Source: Solobacterium sp. (GTDB taxonomy: Bacteria > Bacillota_I > Bacilli_A > Erysipelotrichales > Erysipelotrichaceae). Taken from it: a stretch of DNA of 18,583 nucleotides. The notes beneath the pieces were generated by a model. The model was not told the origin of the DNA. It was given only the letters and a program-made list of their open reading frames with translations, and ran no database searches. Where the stretch lies: contig JAFWJP010000193.1 of the NCBI GenBank assembly GCA_017514645.1, forward strand, positions 1-18,583, written 5' to 3'. Positions 1 to 17,557 of this stretch are shown here, one piece after another (position 1 is the first letter of the stretch; each line of letters opens with the position of its first letter). Both the position numbers and the translations under genes were made by a program.

Positions 1-272
1 AATGAAGAGAATACATAGTCTTCAATTCCGGTAGTATAGACAATCGTTTTTCCAGGGTCTTCTATCCGTTTTACAAGTTCAAACCCATTGGTTATAGGCA
101 TTTCAATATCTACAAAATAAATATCATACTGACTATTGATCTCTCGCGAGTATGTACTGTATGCATGAATTTCAACACAAAACTCAAGGCGATTACAGAC
201 TTCTGTAATAACACCTTTCATCAACGGCAAAAACGAGATGTCGTCGTCTATTAAACAAATACGCAAAACCAT
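1..272 (-). CDS. LytTR-type response regulator, receiver domain only (partial, runs off left edge)
   Basis: The first 90 codons of a response regulator read on the minus strand from an ATG at 272; the rest lies outside the window. The receiver domain shows the acidic cluster D9-D10-D11, the phospho-acceptor Asp55 in the motif VDIEMP, and the conserved Thr80 followed by a Tyr (YTTGIEDY). This is the pattern of AgrA/ComE/LytR regulators, which receive phosphate from a membrane histidine kinase and bind direct repeats through a C-terminal LytTR domain not visible here. It starts 12 nt after the stop of the XRE gene, so the two are probably cotranscribed, and it is divergent from agrB-agrD. Seen: receiver motifs. 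Inferred: the LytTR output domain and the role as the AgrA of this locus, based on the neighbouring agrBD. A histidine kinase would be expected further left. The ribosome site is weak, which would fit translational coupling. Confidence 0.85.
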   Translation of the reverse strand, partial: MVLRICLIDDDISFLPLMKGVITEVCNRLEFCVEIHAYSTYSREINSQYDIYFVDIEMPITNGFELVKRIEDPGKTIVYTTGIEDYVFSS

Positions 273-284
273 ATGTAAAAGTCT

Positions 285-593
285 TTAATCCTGTTTTAAT
301 GTTTTGACGATATGACGTATAAGAAATTGCATTCTTTCATCTAATCCTGCGATATTTACGGTTTGAATATCAGGTTCATAGCATAATAGGTAATCTAAAG
401 AAACGTCGAAAATATCAGACAAACGACACGGTTTATCTTCGGGTATCTTTTTTGAGCCATCTTCAAAATTGTGCATTGTCTGAGCAGATACACCGATTTG
501 TTTCCCTAGTTCTTCTAATGTGTATCCAGACTCCAATCGTAGTTTCTTAATATTGTTTGTGCTGCCGTCAGCGTTATATGTTCGTTTTCTCAT
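285..593 (-). CDS. small XRE-family HTH transcriptional regulator
   Basis: This encodes a 102-residue protein that is mostly one Cro/C1-type helix-turn-helix domain. It spans about residues 15-69 (KKLRLESGYTLEELGKQIGV, then a recognition helix near SAQTMHNFEDG and the closing SLDYLL). A charged helical tail follows. I chose the ATG at 593, which has a GAGAG ribosome site 7 nt upstream. A TTG at 611 would add six residues, but it overlaps a TACAAT box (612-617, minus strand) that could be the -10. The gene lies between agrBD and the response regulator and points away from agrBD. It may therefore control the intergenic promoters or be a local repressor of the quorum-sensing locus. Its operator is unknown. 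The reading frame is AT-rich like the rest of 1-1625. Confidence 0.85.
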   Translation of the reverse strand: MRKRTYNADGSTNNIKKLRLESGYTLEELGKQIGVSAQTMHNFEDGSKKIPEDKPCRLSDIFDVSLDYLLCYEPDIQTVNIAGLDERMQFLIRHIVKTLKQD

Positions 594-805: not shown

Positions 806-840
806 TTGACCGGTTGTCCCGGTTTTTGACCACTTATCCC
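806..840 (+). promoter_or_regulatory. tandem direct repeats upstream of agrB, candidate LytTR response-regulator site
   Basis: TTGACCGGTTGTCCC (806-820) and TTGACCACTTATCCC (826-840) match at 12 of 15 positions and start exactly 20 bp apart, about two helical turns. They end 8 bp before the agrB -35 box. LytTR regulators such as AgrA, ComE and VirR bind pairs of short direct repeats about two turns apart and upstream of, or touching, the -35. The geometry fits; the sequence is not the staphylococcal consensus. The likely binder is the response regulator at 1-272. Confidence 0.55.
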
Positions 841-848
841 TTACTGGG

Positions 849-876
849 TTGAATAACTTGCTTCCTGTCATAGAAT
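849..876 (+). promoter_or_regulatory. agrB promoter
   Basis: A -35 box TTGAAT (849-854) is separated by 16 bp from a -10 box TAGAAT (871-876). Transcription should start near 883, only a few bases before the agrB ATG at 886, so the mRNA would be nearly leaderless. Confidence 0.55.
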
Positions 877-885
877 GTACTTGTC

Positions 886-1428
886 ATGAAAAGGATGTGG
901 TTTACAAAACAATTATATACGACTTGTGATAATATGAATGTTGATTATGATGTCGTTAAATACGGTCTAAAAGTCGAAGGCGCCTGGCTATTAGATTGTG
1001 TGGTAACACTGACCCTATGCTTTTATCTAAAAGTGTTTGTTGAATGTATAGTGTTCATAGCGGCTTTTACCTATCTTCGTTTATATTGTGGCGGATATCA
1101 TTGTAAAACATATCTATCATGCGGTATTCACTATGTTTGCATGACAACATTATCTTCGTGGGCGGCACATTATTGTCATTATCACGGATTAATGCTTATG
1201 AGCGGTTTAGTTGCATTTGTTTATCTATATATGACTGTCCCGGTTGAGAACGAAAATAACCGATTGGACTTAACAGAGCGTTTAGTTTACAGATCTCTTG
1301 CAAAAAAACGATTATGGGCCGTCTTGATTATCATGGTTGGAAGCCTTGTGGTCATACAAACTTCAGTCTTCGCGTTTGTTTTGTTGGATCTGGCATGCTT
1401 ATGCATGCTGCAGAGGAGGTTATTATGA
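886..1428 (+). CDS. agrB: AgrB-type membrane endopeptidase (accessory gene regulator B)
   Basis: This encodes a 180-residue polytopic membrane protein. AgrB is a membrane cysteine protease that removes the C-terminal tail of the AgrD precursor and helps to form the thiolactone or lactone ring. The signature RLYCGGYHCKTYLSC is at residues 65-79, and the candidate catalytic His72 and Cys79 have the same 7-residue spacing as in staphylococcal AgrB. The motif PVENENNRLDL (119-129) matches the conserved P-[VI]-[ED]-x-x-N region. About four to six hydrophobic segments lie between 35 and 172. Its length is typical (about 180-210). Its TGA overlaps the agrD ATG (ATGA), so the pair is translationally coupled. 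No ribosome site precedes the ATG, and the promoter lies only 9 nt away. The protein is unusually rich in Cys and Tyr. The C-terminus is shorter than in staphylococci. Confidence 0.88.
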   Translation: MKRMWFTKQLYTTCDNMNVDYDVVKYGLKVEGAWLLDCVVTLTLCFYLKVFVECIVFIAAFTYLRLYCGGYHCKTYLSCGIHYVCMTTLSSWAAHYCHYHGLMLMSGLVAFVYLYMTVPVENENNRLDLTERLVYRSLAKKRLWAVLIIMVGSLVVIQTSVFAFVLLDLACLCMLQRRLL

Positions 1429-1568
1429 AACTGTTCGAAGTGATGGTATCTATTGCTATGAAAGCTGCAGCTAAAGCAGCGAACGTTCCTTCGTGGAAGG
1501 GTATGTATCAGGAAGACATGCCCGAGTCTGTAAGGAAACTGAAACAACAGCCAAAGAGTATTCACTGA
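1425..1568 (+). CDS. agrD: AgrD-type signal peptide precursor with Ser in place of the ring Cys
   Basis: This is a 47-residue peptide starting at an ATG that overlaps the agrB stop, behind a strong AGAGGAGG ribosome site. An amphipathic N-terminal helix (residues 1-19, Lys/Ala/Val-rich) would anchor it to the membrane. The AIP region follows in ANVPSWKGMYQEDMPES, and then a charged tail. The Pro-Glu after an acidic stretch matches the AgrD recognition element. Counting five residues (YQEDM) back from that Pro, as in S. aureus AgrD-I, the cut would fall after Met. The predicted five-residue ring is then Ser-Trp-Lys-Gly-Met. Ser takes the place of the usual Cys, so the ring would be a lactone. 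Ring size and N-terminal trimming are inferred. The peptide is too short and too diverged for a confident mature sequence, but its position and layout make AgrD very likely. Confidence 0.82.
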   Translation: MKLFEVMVSIAMKAAAKAANVPSWKGMYQEDMPESVRKLKQQPKSIH

Positions 1569-1589: not shown

Positions 1590-1624
1590 AAAGCGTCCGG
1601 AGTGTTCCGAACGCTTTGCTTTAT
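1590..1624 (+). terminator. terminator of agrBD
   Basis: The arms 1590-1601 and 1606-1617 form a 12-bp stem (AAAGCGTCCGGA / TCCGAACGCTTT) with one C-A mismatch and a GTGT loop. A weak T-rich tail follows. It lies 22 nt after the agrD stop. Confidence 0.6.
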
Positions 1625-1657
1625 ATACGGCCTGTTTCACTGCCTGTAAGGAATCAT

Positions 1658-1679
1658 AGAAAAAGGGCCTGAGCCCTTT
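1658..1679 (-). terminator. terminator of the MarR-type gene
   Basis: On the minus strand the stem AAAGGGC / GCCCTTT (1662-1668 with 1673-1679, 4-nt loop) is followed by a run of Ts (complement of the A-run at 1660-1664). It lies directly after the MarR-type stop codon. Confidence 0.75.
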
Positions 1680-1684
1680 CCGGT

Positions 1685-2191
1685 TTACTCTTCCTCCGCT
1701 GTGATCTTGTCCAGCAGGTCCAGAAGTGTTTTCTTTTCGTCTTCCGTCAGACTGCGGAAGATGTTTTCAGCATATGCAGCCCGTTCATCCATGACTTCCC
1801 AGGCGCGCGCTTTGCCTTTCTCCGTCAATGTGATGAGCGTTGCCCGCTTGTCTGCCGGATCGACCGTACGTTCGATGTAGCGGTCTGCCTCCAGCTTGTC
1901 GATGAGCTCGGACATGGAGGACGGATTGACGCCTCTCCTCTCTGCCAGCTCTTTCTGATGGATGCCCTGTTCTCCGGCATCCAGGATCTCGGCGAGAATA
2001 CGCTCTCTCGGGAAGCGGTGCGGATGGTGCTTATGGGGTTCCCCCTCCGGGTGTCCCTTCATCGGGAATCCCTCCGGCATGGGCGGTCTGTGCATTCCGT
2101 GCATATGACGCATTCCCATCGGACGCCGCATCGTCTTCTTCTGCAGCAGACGTATTTTCTCCAGCAACTGTTCATTCAATGTCTTTTCCAT
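1685..2191 (-). CDS. MarR-family regulator with Met/His-rich N-terminal segment
   Basis: This encodes a 168-residue protein. The start is the ATG at 2191, with AAAGGAGA 7 nt upstream; a longer upstream reading frame would run through the operators and is rejected. Residues about 62-160 form a MarR winged helix: ILAEILDAGEQGIHQKELAE, recognition helix near NPSSMSELIDKLEADRYIER, wing DPADKRATLITLTEKG, then the C-terminal dimer helix. Residues 21-58 are unusual, with seven Met and eight His in 38 positions mixed with Pro and Gly. That composition is known from copper or other soft-metal handling proteins, so a metal- or redox-responsive role is a reasonable inference. It is divergent from the flavodoxin, and two palindromes lie between the genes. 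It probably represses both and is inactivated by a ligand or metal. Confidence 0.88.
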   Translation of the reverse strand: MEKTLNEQLLEKIRLLQKKTMRRPMGMRHMHGMHRPPMPEGFPMKGHPEGEPHKHHPHRFPRERILAEILDAGEQGIHQKELAERRGVNPSSMSELIDKLEADRYIERTVDPADKRATLITLTEKGKARAWEVMDERAAYAENIFRSLTEDEKKTLLDLLDKITAEEE

Positions 2192-2213
2192 TGTTGTGTC
2201 TCCTTTCTTTTGC

Positions 2214-2225
2214 TTCGGTACCGAA
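2214..2225. promoter_or_regulatory. palindromic operator 1 (MarR-type gene side)
   Basis: The perfect 12-bp palindrome TTCGGTACCGAA sits in the leader of the MarR-type gene, just downstream of its predicted -10. An identical copy lies 48 bp away, near the flavodoxin. The regulator itself is the likely binder. Confidence 0.7.
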
Positions 2226-2228
2226 CTA

Positions 2229-2256
2229 AATATAACATACATATTCGTTGTGTCAA
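2229..2256 (-). promoter_or_regulatory. promoter of the MarR-type gene
   Basis: On the minus strand, TTGACA (complement of 2251-2256) is followed after 16 bp by TATATT (complement of 2229-2234). The two 12-bp palindromes flank this promoter on either side, which is a good arrangement for autorepression. Confidence 0.6.
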
Positions 2257-2261
2257 TATAT

Positions 2262-2273
2262 TTCGGTACCGAA
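2262..2273. promoter_or_regulatory. palindromic operator 2 (flavodoxin side)
   Basis: This is a second perfect copy of TTCGGTACCGAA. It lies upstream of the MarR-type gene's -35 and 59 bp before the flavodoxin start. It could block a flavodoxin promoter in this AT-rich gap; no strong plus-strand -35/-10 pair could be picked, though TAAAAT at 2308-2313 is a possible -10. Confidence 0.7.
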
Positions 2274-2332
2274 TTATTAAAAATCATGTTACGGTGCTGC
2301 ATACTGCTAAAATAGAGGCAGGAGGTATCATC

Positions 2333-2806
2333 ATGAAAAAGTTAGTTACGTATTTCAGTGCAGAAGGAACGACCGCAAAAGTCGCCAAGGACCTTGCAGA
2401 TGCCATCGGTGCGGATCTCTATGAAATCAAGCCGGAAGTACCCTATACCAAGGCGGATCTCAACTGGATGGACAAACAGTCCCGGAGCACGCTCGAAATG
2501 AACGACCCTGCTTCGAGACCGGCACTGGCAGATCACGAAGCCGATGTAGAGGCATATGATACCGTATTCATCGGTTTCCCGATCTGGTGGTATGTCGCAC
2601 CGACGATCATCAATACATTCCTGGAAGCCTATGATTTCGGCGGAAAGAAGATCGCTTTGTTTGCGACGTCCGGCGGAAGCGGAATGGGAAAGACGGCAGA
2701 AGTGCTGAAGAAGAGCCTGCCGGATACAGCCGTCATCGTAGACGCAAAGATGCTCAACGGACATCCGGGCAAAGATGCCCTGAAAGCCTGGGCAGAGCAG
2801 TTCTGA
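2333..2806 (+). CDS. flavodoxin-family protein
   Basis: This encodes a 157-residue cytoplasmic FMN-binding protein. The phosphate-binding loop FSAEGTTAKVA is at residues 8-18. The aromatic FMN-contact region GFPIWWYVAPTIINTFLE is at about 83-100, and a second loop ATSGGSGMG at about 111-119. This is the flavodoxin_4-like group often annotated as flavodoxin or NAD(P)H-dependent quinone/flavin reductase; low-potential electron transfer is the safe description. The start ATG at 2333 follows AGGAGG at a good distance, and a longer frame starting inside the MarR gene is rejected. The gene is divergent from the MarR-type regulator, a common pairing for oxidative or electrophile stress responses, so induction when the repressor is inactivated is inferred. 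It is monocistronic, ending at a strong terminator. Confidence 0.88.
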   Translation: MKKLVTYFSAEGTTAKVAKDLADAIGADLYEIKPEVPYTKADLNWMDKQSRSTLEMNDPASRPALADHEADVEAYDTVFIGFPIWWYVAPTIINTFLEAYDFGGKKIALFATSGGSGMGKTAEVLKKSLPDTAVIVDAKMLNGHPGKDALKAWAEQF

Positions 2807-2850
2807 ATCAACCGGGCAGGTACGGCAGGTTTCCCGGGAAATACTGCGTG

Positions 2851-2880
2851 AAAGACAGTGAAAACATACTGTCTTTTTTT
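2851..2880 (+). terminator. flavodoxin terminator
   Basis: The perfect 9-bp stem AAAGACAGT / ACTGTCTTT (2851-2859 with 2868-2876) has an 8-nt loop and runs into seven Ts. Confidence 0.9.
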
Positions 2881-2931
2881 GATGAAAATTCCAAGAAATC
2901 CGGGGATCATCGGTATGTATGTGCCTGTGGT

Positions 2932-2940
2932 TGCTACAAT
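2932..2940 (+). promoter_or_regulatory. extended -10 promoter of the RidA-aldolase operon
   Basis: TG-C-TACAAT is an extended -10 element about 33 bp before the RidA start. No good -35 is visible, which is normal for extended -10 promoters. Confidence 0.5.
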
Positions 2941-2972
2941 AGAATCAGTTACCAGAGAACGGAGGTATGGAG

Positions 2973-3350
2973 ATGATTCAGAGATTCAACGGACAGGGCG
3001 GACCTGTCGCGCCGGAAATGCCGTTTTCTTCCGTCGTGATCCATGACGGTACGATGTACGTGTCCGGTACCGGCGGCTATGATCCGGCAACCGGTACTCT
3101 GCCGGATACTTTCCTCGGACAGGCGGAACAGGTGCTGAAGAACCTGACCACAGCCATTGAAAGCGCCGGAGGGGATATGAACAACGTCCTCAAGTGCACC
3201 TGTTTCGTAACCAACATGAGCTACTACAAAGCCTTCAACGAACTCTTCCACGAGTATCTTCCCTGTCAGCCGGCAAGAAGCTGTATTGAAGTCGTATCTC
3301 TTCCGGCGGGCATGTCGATTGAAATTGAAGCGATCGTCGCAATGAACTGA
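2973..3350 (+). CDS. RidA/YjgF-family reactive-intermediate deaminase
   Basis: This encodes a 125-residue protein of the usual RidA length. RidA proteins hydrolyse reactive enamine/imine intermediates such as 2-aminoacrylate, which PLP enzymes release. The C-terminal signature QPARSCIEVVSLP (residues 99-111) carries Arg102, the equivalent of the substrate-binding Arg105 of E. coli RidA, and the adjacent Cys104; IEIEAIVAMN closes the domain. I chose the ATG at 2973, which lies 7 nt after GGAGG. The ATG at 2967 is only 1 nt from it and less likely. A PLP-dependent threonine aldolase gene starts 13 nt downstream, so the pair is probably an operon. The pairing makes chemical sense, since RidA would clear by-products of PLP chemistry on Ser or Thr. 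Confidence 0.9.
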   Translation: MIQRFNGQGGPVAPEMPFSSVVIHDGTMYVSGTGGYDPATGTLPDTFLGQAEQVLKNLTTAIESAGGDMNNVLKCTCFVTNMSYYKAFNELFHEYLPCQPARSCIEVVSLPAGMSIEIEAIVAMN

Positions 3351-3363
3351 AAGGAGAACACCG

Positions 3364-4407
3364 ATGACAAACAAACCCTCCTTTTCCTGTGATTATATGG
3401 AAGGTGCCCTTCCGGAGATCCTGGAAGCTCTGCTGAAAACGAATATGGAACAGTCTCCCGGATACGGTACGGACAGCTATACCGCGTCCGCAAAGACAAA
3501 GATCAGGGAAGCCTGCGGGACACCGGATGCGGATGTCTTCTTCCTGGTCGGCGGCACACAGACGAATGCTACGGTGATCCGGGCGATACTGAAGACATAT
3601 GAAGGTGTGATCGCGGCAGAAACCGGGCACATCAGCGTTCATGAAGCCGGTGCAATCGAAGCCGGCGGTCACAAGGTCCTGACGATTCCGCACTATGACG
3701 GAAAGATCTCAGCCAGGGATCTGGAAGACTACCTCAGGAACAACCTTGCGGACGGAAACCGGGACCATATGGTCATTCCGGGCATGGTCTACATTTCCCA
3801 GCCGACGGAGTACGGGACACTGTATTCCCGGGCGGAACTGGAGCAGATCAGCGCGCTGTGCCGTGAGTACAAGCTGCCGCTGTATGTGGACGGTGCGCGT
3901 CTTGCCTATGCCCTGGCCTGCAAGGAGAACGACGTGACACTGAAGGATCTCGGCAGACTGTGTGATGCGTTCTACATCGGCGGAACCAAGTGCGGTGCAT
4001 TGTTCGGTGAAGCTGTTGTCATTCCGCAGCACGGACTGATTCCCCATTTCTTCACAACGATCAAGCAGGGCGGTGCGCTTCTGGCCAAGGGACGCATTGC
4101 CGGTATCCAGTACGATGTTCTGTTCACGGATGATCTGTACCTGAAGGCAGGCAAGGCCGGCATTGATGCGGCAGACCGGATCCGGGCAGTCCTGGAGGAA
4201 GAAGGGTATGAACTGAAGTTCGGTTCTCCCACCAACCAGCTCTTCGTAGCGCTGGATGATGCGGAACGGGAACGTCTGTCGGATGAAGTCGGACTCGGAT
4301 TCTGGGAGAATCTCCCTGACGGAAGGACGATCATGCGTATTGCGACCAGCTGGGCGACCACGGATGCGAATGTGGACAGACTGATCGAAGTTCTGAGAAA
4401 ACACTAG
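3364..4407 (+). CDS. low-specificity threonine aldolase (PLP-dependent)
   Basis: This encodes a 347-residue fold-type I PLP enzyme of normal family length. Threonine aldolases cleave L-threonine or allo-threonine to glycine and acetaldehyde. Visible features are the N-terminal D10-Y11-x-E-G, the cofactor-stacking His89 in ETGHISVHEAGAIE (86-99), Asp176 in YVDGARLA, which binds the PLP ring nitrogen, and the Schiff-base Lys209 in YIGGTKCG. The start ATG follows AAGGAG. The stop is followed by a strong terminator, making this the last gene of the RidA operon. Exact substrate preference (threonine, phenylserine, other beta-hydroxy amino acids) cannot be read from the sequence, and the wider beta-eliminating lyase family is the alternative. 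Confidence 0.9.
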   Translation: MTNKPSFSCDYMEGALPEILEALLKTNMEQSPGYGTDSYTASAKTKIREACGTPDADVFFLVGGTQTNATVIRAILKTYEGVIAAETGHISVHEAGAIEAGGHKVLTIPHYDGKISARDLEDYLRNNLADGNRDHMVIPGMVYISQPTEYGTLYSRAELEQISALCREYKLPLYVDGARLAYALACKENDVTLKDLGRLCDAFYIGGTKCGALFGEAVVIPQHGLIPHFFTTIKQGGALLAKGRIAGIQYDVLFTDDLYLKAGKAGIDAADRIRAVLEEEGYELKFGSPTNQLFVALDDAERERLSDEVGLGFWENLPDGRTIMRIATSWATTDANVDRLIEVLRKH

Positions 4408-4416
4408 AATAATCAC

Positions 4417-4457
4417 GATGAACTCTGCGGATCAGCCGGGGAGTTCATCTTTTTCTT
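4417..4457 (+). terminator. terminator of the RidA-aldolase operon
   Basis: The perfect 9-bp stem GATGAACTC / GAGTTCATC (4417-4425 with 4441-4449) has a 15-nt loop and is followed by TTTTTCTTT. Confidence 0.85.
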
Positions 4458-4530
4458 TGACGGCTTATGAAAAAAAGTTTCCGGCTTACCGGCAGATAAA
4501 GATAAAAACAGGGATTCTTCCTGTATTTTA

Positions 4531-4561
4531 TTGAAATTGTTCTCTGCCAATCCGCTACAAT
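4531..4561 (+). promoter_or_regulatory. probable promoter of the M20 amidohydrolase operon
   Basis: TTGAAA (4531-4536) and TACAAT (4556-4561) have a 19-bp spacer, slightly long. The -10 is good and lies about 180 bp upstream of the M20 gene, giving a long leader. Confidence 0.45.
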
Positions 4562-4567
4562 GAAATC

Positions 4568-4678
4568 ATGAAATACAGAGACGCAGCAAGATTCACCGGA
4601 ATGACAGGGAGCGGATCTTTCGCTGCGTCTTTTACGACATCCACCCCGAAAGGGGTACGGGCAAAGATACCGGCATAA
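4568..4678 (+). CDS. possible 36-residue leader peptide upstream of the M20 gene
   Basis: An open frame runs from the ATG at 4568 to TAA at 4676-4678. It encodes 36 residues rich in Ala, Thr, Ser and Lys/Arg, beginning MKYRDAARFTGM and ending KGVRAKIPA. It has no ribosome site, but the ATG lies 6 nt after the predicted -10, about where transcription should start, so it could be leaderless. It runs through the hairpin 4577-4632. No transmembrane segment or known motif is visible. It may be a leader peptide, or chance coding in a structured RNA. Confidence 0.3.
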   Translation: MKYRDAARFTGMTGSGSFAASFTTSTPKGVRAKIPA

Positions 4679-4687
4679 GCCGAAGAC
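4577..4687 (+). promoter_or_regulatory. structured leader with attenuator-like hairpin
   Basis: The arms GACGCAGC (4580-4587) and GCTGCGTC (4622-4629) pair. The stem extends inward through AAGAT/ATCTT (4588-4592 with 4615-4619) and is followed by TTTT, like an intrinsic terminator inside the leader. Downstream are a GAAA-capped hairpin ACCCC/GGGGT (4643-4656) and the hairpin CGGC-ATAA-GCCG (4671-4682). GTCTT (4627-4631), part of the first hairpin's 3' side, can instead pair with AAGAC (4683-4687), giving two mutually exclusive folds. This resembles attenuation or riboswitch logic, but I do not recognise a known class. Confidence 0.4.
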
Positions 4688-4743
4688 ATACAATTCATAG
4701 AAATACAGAAATCATTTTTTGATATGAAAGGGAGAATTTGATC

Positions 4744-6129
4744 ATGAACGAACGCCAGAAACAATTGATCGCAAACGCAGAAAAGAACAGAGACCTCATG
4801 TATGACGCAGAAGCGTTTATCTGGAAGCACCCGCAGACAGGATTCACGGAGTGGGAAGCGCACAATTACCTCGTACCGAAGTATGAAGTGCTCGGCTACA
4901 AGGTCAACCTGGCCGGAAAGATTCCCGGATTCGGTGATATCCCGGGATTCTGGATCGATATCGATACGGGGAGGGAAGGACCGACACTGGCGGTCTTCGG
5001 TGAACTGGATGCGCTGGATATCGCCAACCATCCGGAATCGGTCAACGGCATGACGCATTGCTGCGGACACCATGCACAGTCGGCAGTACTGCTGGGACTG
5101 GCAGCGGCTCTGAAGGAACCGGGTGCGCTGGACGGTCTCTGCGGAAAGATCCGTCTGATCGGTGTACCGGCAGAGGAAATGATCCAGCTGGCCTTCCGTG
5201 AAGATCTGCGCAAGAAGGGTGTCATCAGTTATATGGGCGGCAAGGTTGAATTCATGCACAGAGGCATTCTGGACGGTGTGGATATCGCTATGATGGTACA
5301 TGGCACGGCAGCGGGTGAAGGAGAGCCGTATGACTTCTCCTGCGGGCTGGGCAATAACGGCTGTATGGCCAAAACGATCCGCTACAAAGGAAAGAGCGCA
5401 CATGCCGGCGGTGCACCGCATATGGGCATCAACGCAGAATACGCTGCTATGCTCGGTCTGCAGGCGGTGAACAACCTGCGTGAGACATTCCAGGAGAAGG
5501 ATTACATCCGCTTCCATCCGATCATGATGGGTGTCAACTGCGCAGTCAATATTATCCCGGATGAAATGAAGATCGAAAGCTATGTCCGCGGCAAGACAAA
5601 CGAAGCAATCAAACGTGAAAACAACAAGGTCAACCGCGCGCTGGCAGGTGCAGCCCTGGCAATGGGCGCCGGTGTTGAGCTGACGGATCGCCCGGGCTAT
5701 TCCCCTGAGGTTCATGACTATGACTTCATGAAGCTGGTAGAGAAGTGCTGCTGCGATCTCGTCGGCGAAGACAGAGTGAAGTTCGACTATACAGAGTGGA
5801 GTACAGGTTCTTCCGATTTCGGTGATATTACCTGCGTCATGCCGGGTGTTCAGTTCAATGCGGCAGGTATTACAGGCACACTGCACGGAATCGACTTCAA
5901 GGTCGTCGACCGTGAGCGTCTGCTGACAAAGAACGCGGAAGCACAGCTGTTTGTCATTGATGCACTGCTCGGAGACGGTGCGGAGAACGCGAAGCGGATC
6001 ATTGCGAACTACAAGCCGACATACAATTCCATCAAGGAATACTTCGACGACATCAACAGCTTCATCCTGGACAAGGATGCGGTCGTATACGACGAGAACG
6101 GCAACGCAACGATCGACTTCAAGAACTGA
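4744..6129 (+). CDS. M20-family amidohydrolase, AbgB-like
   Basis: This encodes a 461-residue cytoplasmic metallo-amidohydrolase. AbgB-type enzymes cleave N-acyl or aminobenzoyl amino-acid amides; the true substrate here is unknown. Visible features are the catalytic-domain motif FGELDAL (85-91), the metal-site cluster HCCGHH with Cys107 and His109, the Glu pair 144-145 in VPAEE, His186 in MVHG, the dimerisation-domain motif KSAHAGGAPHMG (217-228), and the final metal ligand His381 in GTLHGIDF. The ATG at 4744 lies 9 nt after GAAAGGGAG; an in-frame TTG at 4738 is too close. The stop overlaps the GNAT start (TGATG), so both are cotranscribed. A structured leader suggests attenuation control. 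Peptidase M20D carboxypeptidase/IAA-amino-acid hydrolase relatives are alternative names. Confidence 0.9.
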   Translation: MNERQKQLIANAEKNRDLMYDAEAFIWKHPQTGFTEWEAHNYLVPKYEVLGYKVNLAGKIPGFGDIPGFWIDIDTGREGPTLAVFGELDALDIANHPESVNGMTHCCGHHAQSAVLLGLAAALKEPGALDGLCGKIRLIGVPAEEMIQLAFREDLRKKGVISYMGGKVEFMHRGILDGVDIAMMVHGTAAGEGEPYDFSCGLGNNGCMAKTIRYKGKSAHAGGAPHMGINAEYAAMLGLQAVNNLRETFQEKDYIRFHPIMMGVNCAVNIIPDEMKIESYVRGKTNEAIKRENNKVNRALAGAALAMGAGVELTDRPGYSPEVHDYDFMKLVEKCCCDLVGEDRVKFDYTEWSTGSSDFGDITCVMPGVQFNAAGITGTLHGIDFKVVDRERLLTKNAEAQLFVIDALLGDGAENAKRIIANYKPTYNSIKEYFDDINSFILDKDAVVYDENGNATIDFKN

Positions 6130-16918: not shown

Positions 16919-17557
16919 ATGAAACAGGAAAAAACAAGGAAAACCAGAATGGTTCTTTCAGCGTTGATCTTCGTGCTGGTCCTCTATGCCTGGCTCTCAA
17001 TGATGTTGAGCGGTGAAGGTACATTGTCAGAAAAAGGACTCGGGAGTCTGAAGTACTTTACGGTGGACTCCAATCTGCTTATGGGTGCGGCTGCGCTGAA
17101 TCTGGTACGGGAAGATCTGGCGGTACTGCGGGGGACCAAGAACAAGGTGTCCGCTGCTGCCGTACGGCTGTACTATGCCGGGGCTGTGTCGGTTGCCCTG
17201 ACATTCCTCGTCACGGTATTGTTCCTGTCGAGGATCTTCGGTCTCTGGGTGCTGTATGTCGGTGCGAACTTCTGGATGCATCTGGTGGTGCCGGTCCTCG
17301 GTGTCTGTGTGTTCTGCATCTTTGTGCGGGAATACAGGCTGAACATGAAAGATACCCTGGTGTCATTGATACCGCTGGGTATCTATGCGGTCTACTACGT
17401 CGGAATGATCCTGAAATACGGTCTGGAGGATCCGCGGACGGACTGGTACTATTTCTGCTTTACAGGCATCCGTACACTACCCATCGTCCTGATCGTCATT
17501 TTCCTTGTGATTCTGGGTACATCGTTGTTGATGAGAAAGGCGGTCAACCGGACATGA
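16919..17557 (+). CDS. six-helix integral membrane protein (Pr6Pr/FAR-17a-like)
   Basis: This encodes a 212-residue protein with hydrophobic segments near 11-30, 47-64, 82-103, 118-136, 147-165 and 186-206, and a basic N-terminus (KQEKTRKTR) that should be inside. The motifs YFTVDSNLL (46-54, at the start of helix 2) and HLVVP (121-125, in helix 4) resemble the FT-x-x-SN and H-x-x-P motifs of the Pr6Pr/FAR-17a-AIG1 group, whose eukaryotic members hydrolyse fatty-acid hydroxy-fatty-acid esters. Bacterial roles are unknown, so this is a weak family call. No ribosome site precedes the ATG and the -10 is 8 nt away, so translation may be leaderless. Its stop overlaps the PgeF start by 4 nt. Confidence 0.75.
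   Translation: MKQEKTRKTRMVLSALIFVLVLYAWLSMMLSGEGTLSEKGLGSLKYFTVDSNLLMGAAALNLVREDLAVLRGTKNKVSAAAVRLYYAGAVSVALTFLVTVLFLSRIFGLWVLYVGANFWMHLVVPVLGVCVFCIFVREYRLNMKDTLVSLIPLGIYAVYYVGMILKYGLEDPRTDWYYFCFTGIRTLPIVLIVIFLVILGTSLLMRKAVNRT

Follow-up and report, generated by a model that had tools for sequence, protein, structure and literature searches.

How does an agr-type locus close the ring of its signal when the cysteine of the usual thiolactone is replaced by serine, and is such a replacement a rarity or a property of the lineage? These questions are raised by an agrB-agrD pair of Solobacterium sp. that lies near the left end of the DNA analysed here (the window), which is one whole contig of 18583 bases (G000:C170) from a source assembly of 307 contigs that is 69% complete. 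As read from the sequence, the pair would be an autoinducing-peptide (AIP) operon of the agr type making a five-residue lactone signal closed on Ser23, a reading to which we give a probability of roughly 0.74. The features on which the argument draws are the following.

3..272, minus strand: response-regulator receiver, AgrA-like, RR1 type, cut by the contig end (PF00072, 28.8 bits, below the cut-off of 30.2)
285..593, minus strand: HTH regulator of the XRE family, opening the divergent operon; start at ATG 593, with TTG at 611 also possible (HTH_3, E 2e-7)
809..820, plus strand: predicted operator half-site 1, ACCGGTTGTCCC; direct repeat, pattern found in the window and relatives
829..840, plus strand: predicted operator half-site 2, ACCACTTATCCC, 20 bp from the first; direct repeat, pattern found in the window and relatives
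849..876, plus strand: sigma-70-like promoter TTGAAT-16-TAGAAT, 8 nt past the operator (9/12 matches; weak alone)
886..1428, plus strand: agrB, predicted membrane peptidase/cyclase of the AgrB family, 180 aa (PF04647, E 3.8e-24, 85.5 bits, cut-off 23)
1414..1419, plus strand: AGGAGG, ribosome-binding site of agrD, read from the sequence
1425..1568, plus strand: agrD, pro-peptide of 47 residues made up of a leader, the core VPSWKGM and the tail YQEDMPESVRKL (TIGR04223, 34.5 bits, cut-off 19; subfamily alignment)
1491..1505, plus strand: codons of the predicted five-residue ring Ser23-Trp-Lys-Gly-Met27 (Ser, Thr or Cys at the ring column of every AgrD called; five-residue rings among the AIPs listed in PMC12312760)
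1590..1617, plus strand: terminator-like hairpin after agrD (MFE -16.5 for 1569-1640, z -1.77; weak alone)

The agrB-agrD pair and its predicted ring

The pair belongs to the agr kind, as the sequence-only reading had claimed: both products exceed the cut-offs of their family models well beyond chance, and agrD adjoins agrB so closely that its start overlaps the agrB stop by four bases (ATGA). A Pfam scan of AgrD gave no match, while TIGR04223 does match it. AgrB carries the predicted catalytic residues His72 and Cys79 together with Arg65 and Gly70. These four correspond, with identical spacing, to H77, C84, R70 and G75 of S. aureus AgrB, where they are reported to matter (PMC10196373). The His72/Cys79 spacing pointed out earlier is thus present, and both residues are invariant in the 76 aligned AgrBs (76/76 each; Arg 74/76, Gly 71/76). 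In the source assembly, at its 69% completeness, this is the single AgrB found. A structure model has seven helices (8 rows, mean pLDDT 69.6, pTM 0.59), and a sequence search for an AgrB relative with a solved structure found none.

The pro-peptide had been described as a 47-residue AgrD with Ser in the place of the thiolactone Cys, followed by Pro-Glu. This description holds: the sequence around the ring reads ...AANVP-SWKGM-YQEDMPESV..., with Pro33-Glu34 downstream of Ser23. Between residues 10 and 34 there is no Cys or Thr, and Ser23, the sole Ser, Thr or Cys of this stretch, stands at the ring position of the alignment, four residues ahead of the predicted cleavage site. This makes a Ser-Trp-Lys-Gly-Met lactone the best prediction. 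As a prediction, the serine lactone draws support from the family models, from the residue spacing shared with S. aureus AgrB and from the homologues. What counts against it is the polar, cationic character of the ring, Cys-type rings in our set being mostly hydrophobic.

The window and its closest relatives, all in one genus, form a subfamily of nine AgrDs with the common motif P-[S/T]-x-K-x-x-[YFW]-Q-[EP]-x-[ML]-P, in which Pro22 and Lys25 never vary and the ring position holds Ser in seven and Thr in two. All relatives come from uncultured Erysipelotrichaceae or Solobacterium MAGs, one of them from sheep rumen. The genomes of the RUG series are of rumen origin. Five of the nine AgrDs stem from a single MAG, RUG11122 (G026), whose five AgrB/AgrD loci (L054-L057 and L059) carry four Ser rings, all different, and a single Thr ring; at 4.0 Mb and 7% contamination, this MAG may be a mixture of genomes. 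In the sheep-rumen relative (L034/L060), AgrB is broken in frame and the AgrD frame comes after it.

Ring residues across the order and descent of AgrB

The ring residue was followed through 315 genomes of the order, of which 75 passed an AgrB search at E 1e-8, with 130 places. The DNA retrieved covers 118 of these 130 places, the other 12 being weak, fragmentary or with stops. The loci examined hold 119 AgrB entries, among which L087 is false, L189 is counted twice and L062 lies outside the order. AgrDs were called in a first pass (68) and with a matrix built without the ring column (9), 41 entries staying without a call. Seeds and acceptance were chosen by the analyst, the seeds had Ser, Thr or Cys at the ring column, and the ring-blind matrix was trained on the resulting calls. 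Near copies were kept, for example L037/L013/L052, L005/L116/L118, L142/L145 and L058/L059.

The first pass gave Ser in 53 AgrDs, Cys in 10 and Thr in 5. When rows were left out in turn, the ring-blind matrix found the anchor again in 68/68, four of them (L175, L165, L189, L172) at 8 bits or less, and it brought in nine further rows, seven with Cys and two with Ser. Altogether, the 77 AgrDs called comprise 55 Ser, 17 Cys and 5 Thr, and a single row of the Cys type lies outside the order; within the order, the 76 are divided into Ser 55, Cys 16 and Thr 5. In the genus of the window, Ser and Thr are the sole states called (23 and 2 of 25; Cys 0). Among the ORF rows left uncalled, 40/40 above 8 bits have Ser, Thr or Cys at this position (copies of one locus counted), and other residues occur at the anchor in five rows, none of which exceeds 7.5 bits. 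Elsewhere between -14 and +12, Ser, Thr or Cys is found in 0 to 32 of 68, with peaks at -5 and -2. A further three rows of the order with Ser (G189, G190, G196) score 3.4 bits each and stand outside these counts.

With 55 of 76 AgrDs in the order and 23 of 25 in the genus, Ser at the ring is therefore a lineage trait in this group and not a rarity. The suggestion that the exact peptide is uncommon survives in part: of the 77 AgrDs called, a single one has SWKGM, but rings of the form SxKGM are found repeatedly (SKKGM, SRKGM, SQKGM, SNKGM), and no ring residue was called more often in the order than Ser. Beyond the order, a sample of the wider phylum contains Ser types as well as Cys types. Six rows from one family outside the order carry Cys (in one case Ser) one residue further from the anchor, and the spacing between ring and anchor is therefore not universal.

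The census also contains a second AgrD type, in which Q-x-D-x-R follows the ring instead of MPE and which is encoded on the strand opposite agrB. It has Ser in 17/17 rows, 14 of them in the genus (L006, L012, L013, L036, L037, L040, L041, L048, L052, L068, L092, L132, L140, L141, L148, L161 and L166). Viral contigs were searched for relatives and yielded none. Distant AgrBs are present in seven plasmids and a phage-labelled record; three of these eight were read, and both AgrDs found in them are of the Cys type. In the phage-labelled record (L225, MT836121.1), which is unverified and originates from human faeces, an AgrB is accompanied by a Cys-type AgrD and a kinase-like ORF.

An AgrB tree was built from 76 of the 77 rows (L189, too short, was left out). 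On this quick tree, in which branches are long and near copies favour clustering, the Ser, Thr and Cys states require 5 changes, as compared with a mean of 20.1 in shuffles; 0/200 shuffles were as low. Hence, the choice of ring residue follows AgrB descent. Thr occupies the ring position in five AgrDs, L058, L059, L096, L186 and L187, with the rings TLKTA (twice), TWGGL and TWIWM (twice), at three places on the tree; it accounts for 3 changes, 2 of them forced by starred branches. One Thr origin lies inside the starred nine-row clade of the window, and the others fall in an open six-row fork with three Ser types. The two Thr rows of the genus have near-identical AgrBs. In the open-licence literature searched, we recognised no paper on threonine-lactone AIPs or on AgrD of this order.

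At AgrB positions 73, 83, 125 and 34, the residue differs with the type of ring residue, strongly so in raw counts. Position 83 is Ser in 16/17 and Thr in 1/17 of the Cys-type rows and Tyr in 31/59 of the Ser/Thr-type rows; counter to this link, one Ser/Thr clade has Ser83 in five of its six rows. The tree supplies one or at most two independent pairs, and we take the link between position and ring as a lead only. From these data, we tentatively propose, at slightly worse than even odds, that agr in this order works chiefly as an oxo-ester system, in which most AgrB lineages would be specialised for a hydroxyl, Thr lactones (TLKTA in the subfamily of the window, TWGGL and TWIWM) would be made in up to three lineages, and AgrB positions 73 (after His72) and 83 (four past Cys79) would set the use of a thiol or a hydroxyl.

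Control region and divergent regulator genes

Ahead of agrB, the predicted operator has the form ACC-N3-T-N-TCCC, present twice at a pitch of 20 bp (809-840). The pattern was derived from three loci, the window, L054 and L055, whose own scores are hence not independent; L057, L058 and L059 are independent rows, the last two being near copies. A pair at >=13/16, that is at least 13 of 16 positions, is found in 6/9 subfamily loci (the window and five of its eight relatives), with 0/500 shuffles for each, and it sits 39-66 bp before agrB in these six loci. No significant pair was seen in the remaining 3/9 subfamily loci (L056, L060 and L061). A general test for 12-base repeats (18-24 bp apart, 10 or more identities) detected none in the window and was positive in L054, L055, L056, L058 and L059, at 34, 2, 26, 17 and 17 of 1000 shuffles, respectively. 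Over the whole window, the pattern has one exact match, and matches with up to 3 mismatches were seen in 39/200 shuffles. The operator claim therefore rests on the relatives. Among 222 loci, the exact form is limited to the window, in its several copies, and to a pair of loci from one MAG. A regulon search of the source assembly returned the exact site at agrB and one site with two mismatches. Further targets in that assembly are not claimed, since a reversed control pattern also gave one site with two mismatches. The flanking signals are common by chance: sigma-70-like sites in 600-1700 number 6, against 3.7 in shuffles, and terminator-like sites one, against 0.9.

At the left end of the window, the receiver and HTH genes are on the minus strand, divergent from agrB-agrD on the plus strand. 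In BLAST comparisons, the receiver scores 51-68 bits against RR1 of five relatives and at most 42 bits against their second regulator, RR2, so that the window apparently has no RR2 between the two operons, like L060, where RR1 and a kinase gene are present with neither HTH nor RR2. In L055, L057 and L058, HTH, RR1 and kinase genes come in this order, followed by RR2 in the facing orientation and then by agrB-agrD; L056 has the order of L055 with no HTH listed. LytTR domains were found in RR1 of L055, L056 and L058 and, among the RR2 proteins scanned, in those of L055 and L058. The two kinases scanned, of L055 and L057, have GHKL; with 166 aa, the ORF for RR1 in L057 is short. In the source assembly (69% complete, 307 contigs), no LytTR domain was found, and the window contig holds no histidine kinase; its kinase gene should lie past the contig end.

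In 400-base windows, GC is 33-42% over 1-1600 and 42-59% over 1601-5000. The lower GC of the agr segment as compared to the genes beyond it may reflect horizontal acquisition. Elsewhere in the window, 16919-17557 encodes a 212-aa protein with no Pfam match above cut-off and a weak match to DUF1600.

Proposed mechanism, alternatives and known systems

Taken as an agr-type operon, the locus would work as follows. The AgrD leader would take the pro-peptide to the membrane, where AgrB, through His72/Cys79, would cleave it after Met27. AgrB is known to hold its product as a thioester intermediate, and the fragment would here be held on Cys79. Attack of the Ser23 hydroxyl on the thioester would then release the five-residue lactone Ser-Trp-Lys-Gly-Met, with an exotail that would probably include Val-Pro; export and N-terminal trimming would follow. 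A histidine kinase encoded outside the contig would sense the lactone and phosphorylate the divergently encoded regulator, presumably of the LytTR type. This regulator would bind the 20-bp-pitch repeat at 809-840 and raise agrBD transcription, giving autoinduction.

The size of the ring is where another outcome would be least surprising, though still unlikely. If AgrB cut after Tyr28, a six-residue Ser lactone, SWKGMY, would result. A six-residue ring, [CVLVTL] of C. acetobutylicum, is listed in PMC12312760, residue 28 is Tyr, Phe or Trp in 9/9 subfamily AgrDs, and the six AgrDs from another family of the class show that Cys or Ser can stand one residue further from the anchor. On the other hand, the Cys-type AgrDs of the order keep Cys at the distance of Ser23 from the conserved Gln/Glu, and most rings tabulated in PMC12312760 have five residues. 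Slightly less probable is a homodetic (N-to-C amide) cyclopentapeptide as the active signal, formed by an O-to-N acyl shift after loss of the exotail. AIPs without exotail do rearrange; for the Listeria AIP, a lactone analogue had rearranged to 48% within 22 h (PMC11297923). For the peptide of the window, this would require removal of the full exotail, including the bond after Pro22, and the Pro that precedes Ser/Thr in 9/9 subfamily AgrDs may hinder such trimming.

Whether a residue other than Ser23 closes the ring was the result that the sequence-only reading had named as fatal to it, and the homologues gave no sign of one. Lys25 could in principle form a side-chain lactam, and it is more constant in the subfamily (9/9) than the ring position itself (seven Ser, two Thr). 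In the wider set, Lys is found at this position in 11/68 AgrDs, the ring position being Ser, Thr or Cys in all those called, and a ring closed on Lys25 would have three residues only. We rejected Lys25 on the wider set and regard a lactam as the least credible of the outcomes weighed here. The peptide might also block or kill competitors instead of being sensed by its producer. A cationic ring, a contig without receptor gene and a relative MAG with several divergent copies would fit this role, and a rumen survey groups the class with bacteriocin classes, as uncharacterised (PMC13289728). The divergently linked RR1-type response regulator, with a kinase gene beside it in relatives, and the operator-like repeat ahead of agrB argue against it and make such a role improbable.

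Serine-lactone signals are already known elsewhere, and the pair of the window is of a known agr kind. The nearest parallel is agr of S. intermedius/pseudintermedius (RIPT[STGFF]), in which an AgrB/AgrD pair also has Ser for Cys and a five-residue lactone, predicted in our case (PMC12312760, PMC10482373, PMC3673130). The staphylococcal ring ends in Phe-Phe and its genes are described as agrBDCA, whereas the ring of the window holds Lys and the operon of the HTH regulator is divergent. Agr2 of Clostridioides difficile (NSA[SSWVA]), likewise from a gut anaerobe, has a five-residue ring starting with Ser (PMC12312760); unlike the window, it is listed as agrB2D2C2A2 and has no Pro-Ser-x-Lys core in the sequence given there. 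The analogies drawn earlier with the S. intermedius group and with enterococcal Fsr stand as far as the Ser lactone goes, that with Fsr being looser. GBAP of Enterococcus faecalis (QN[SPNIFGQWM]) is a Ser lactone closed on a C-terminal Met (PMC12312760), as predicted here, but its ring has nine residues; in the alignment, the single Ser, Thr or Cys of the window core is followed five residues later by the aromatic-Gln pair, which does not fit a nine-residue ring. Moreover, fsrD is described as lying inside fsrB in another frame, or just downstream in frame, whereas agrD of the window is an ORF of its own that overlaps agrB by four bases in a different frame. With S. aureus agr, the window shares the AgrB residues and their spacing and, by our prediction, cleavage directly after the ring (PMC10196373). 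It differs in that S. aureus makes a Cys thiolactone and requires Asp33-Glu34 after the ring, the equivalent residues of the window being Tyr28-Gln29. AgrB1 and AgrB2 of S. aureus are reported to fail to process a Ser-containing AgrD (PMC10482373), so Ser is not workable with every AgrB.

Overall, what was less expected in this locus and its relatives is the genus-wide use of Ser/Thr, the Thr rows, the invariant Pro-[Ser/Thr]-x-Lys core of the subfamily and the two-site operator. For the rumen, agrA/agrB have been reported in 199 genomes, with the evidence termed limited (PMC10838665). If our reading is true, AIP discovery by thiolactone trapping would, as these counts suggest, miss most signals of this group, and it becomes open to test which AgrB residues choose between thiol and hydroxyl for ring closure. 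The staphylococcal serine lactone, which reviews call an exception among staphylococci (PMC10482373), would then stand beside an order in which Ser is the commonest ring residue called and Thr is a further variant.
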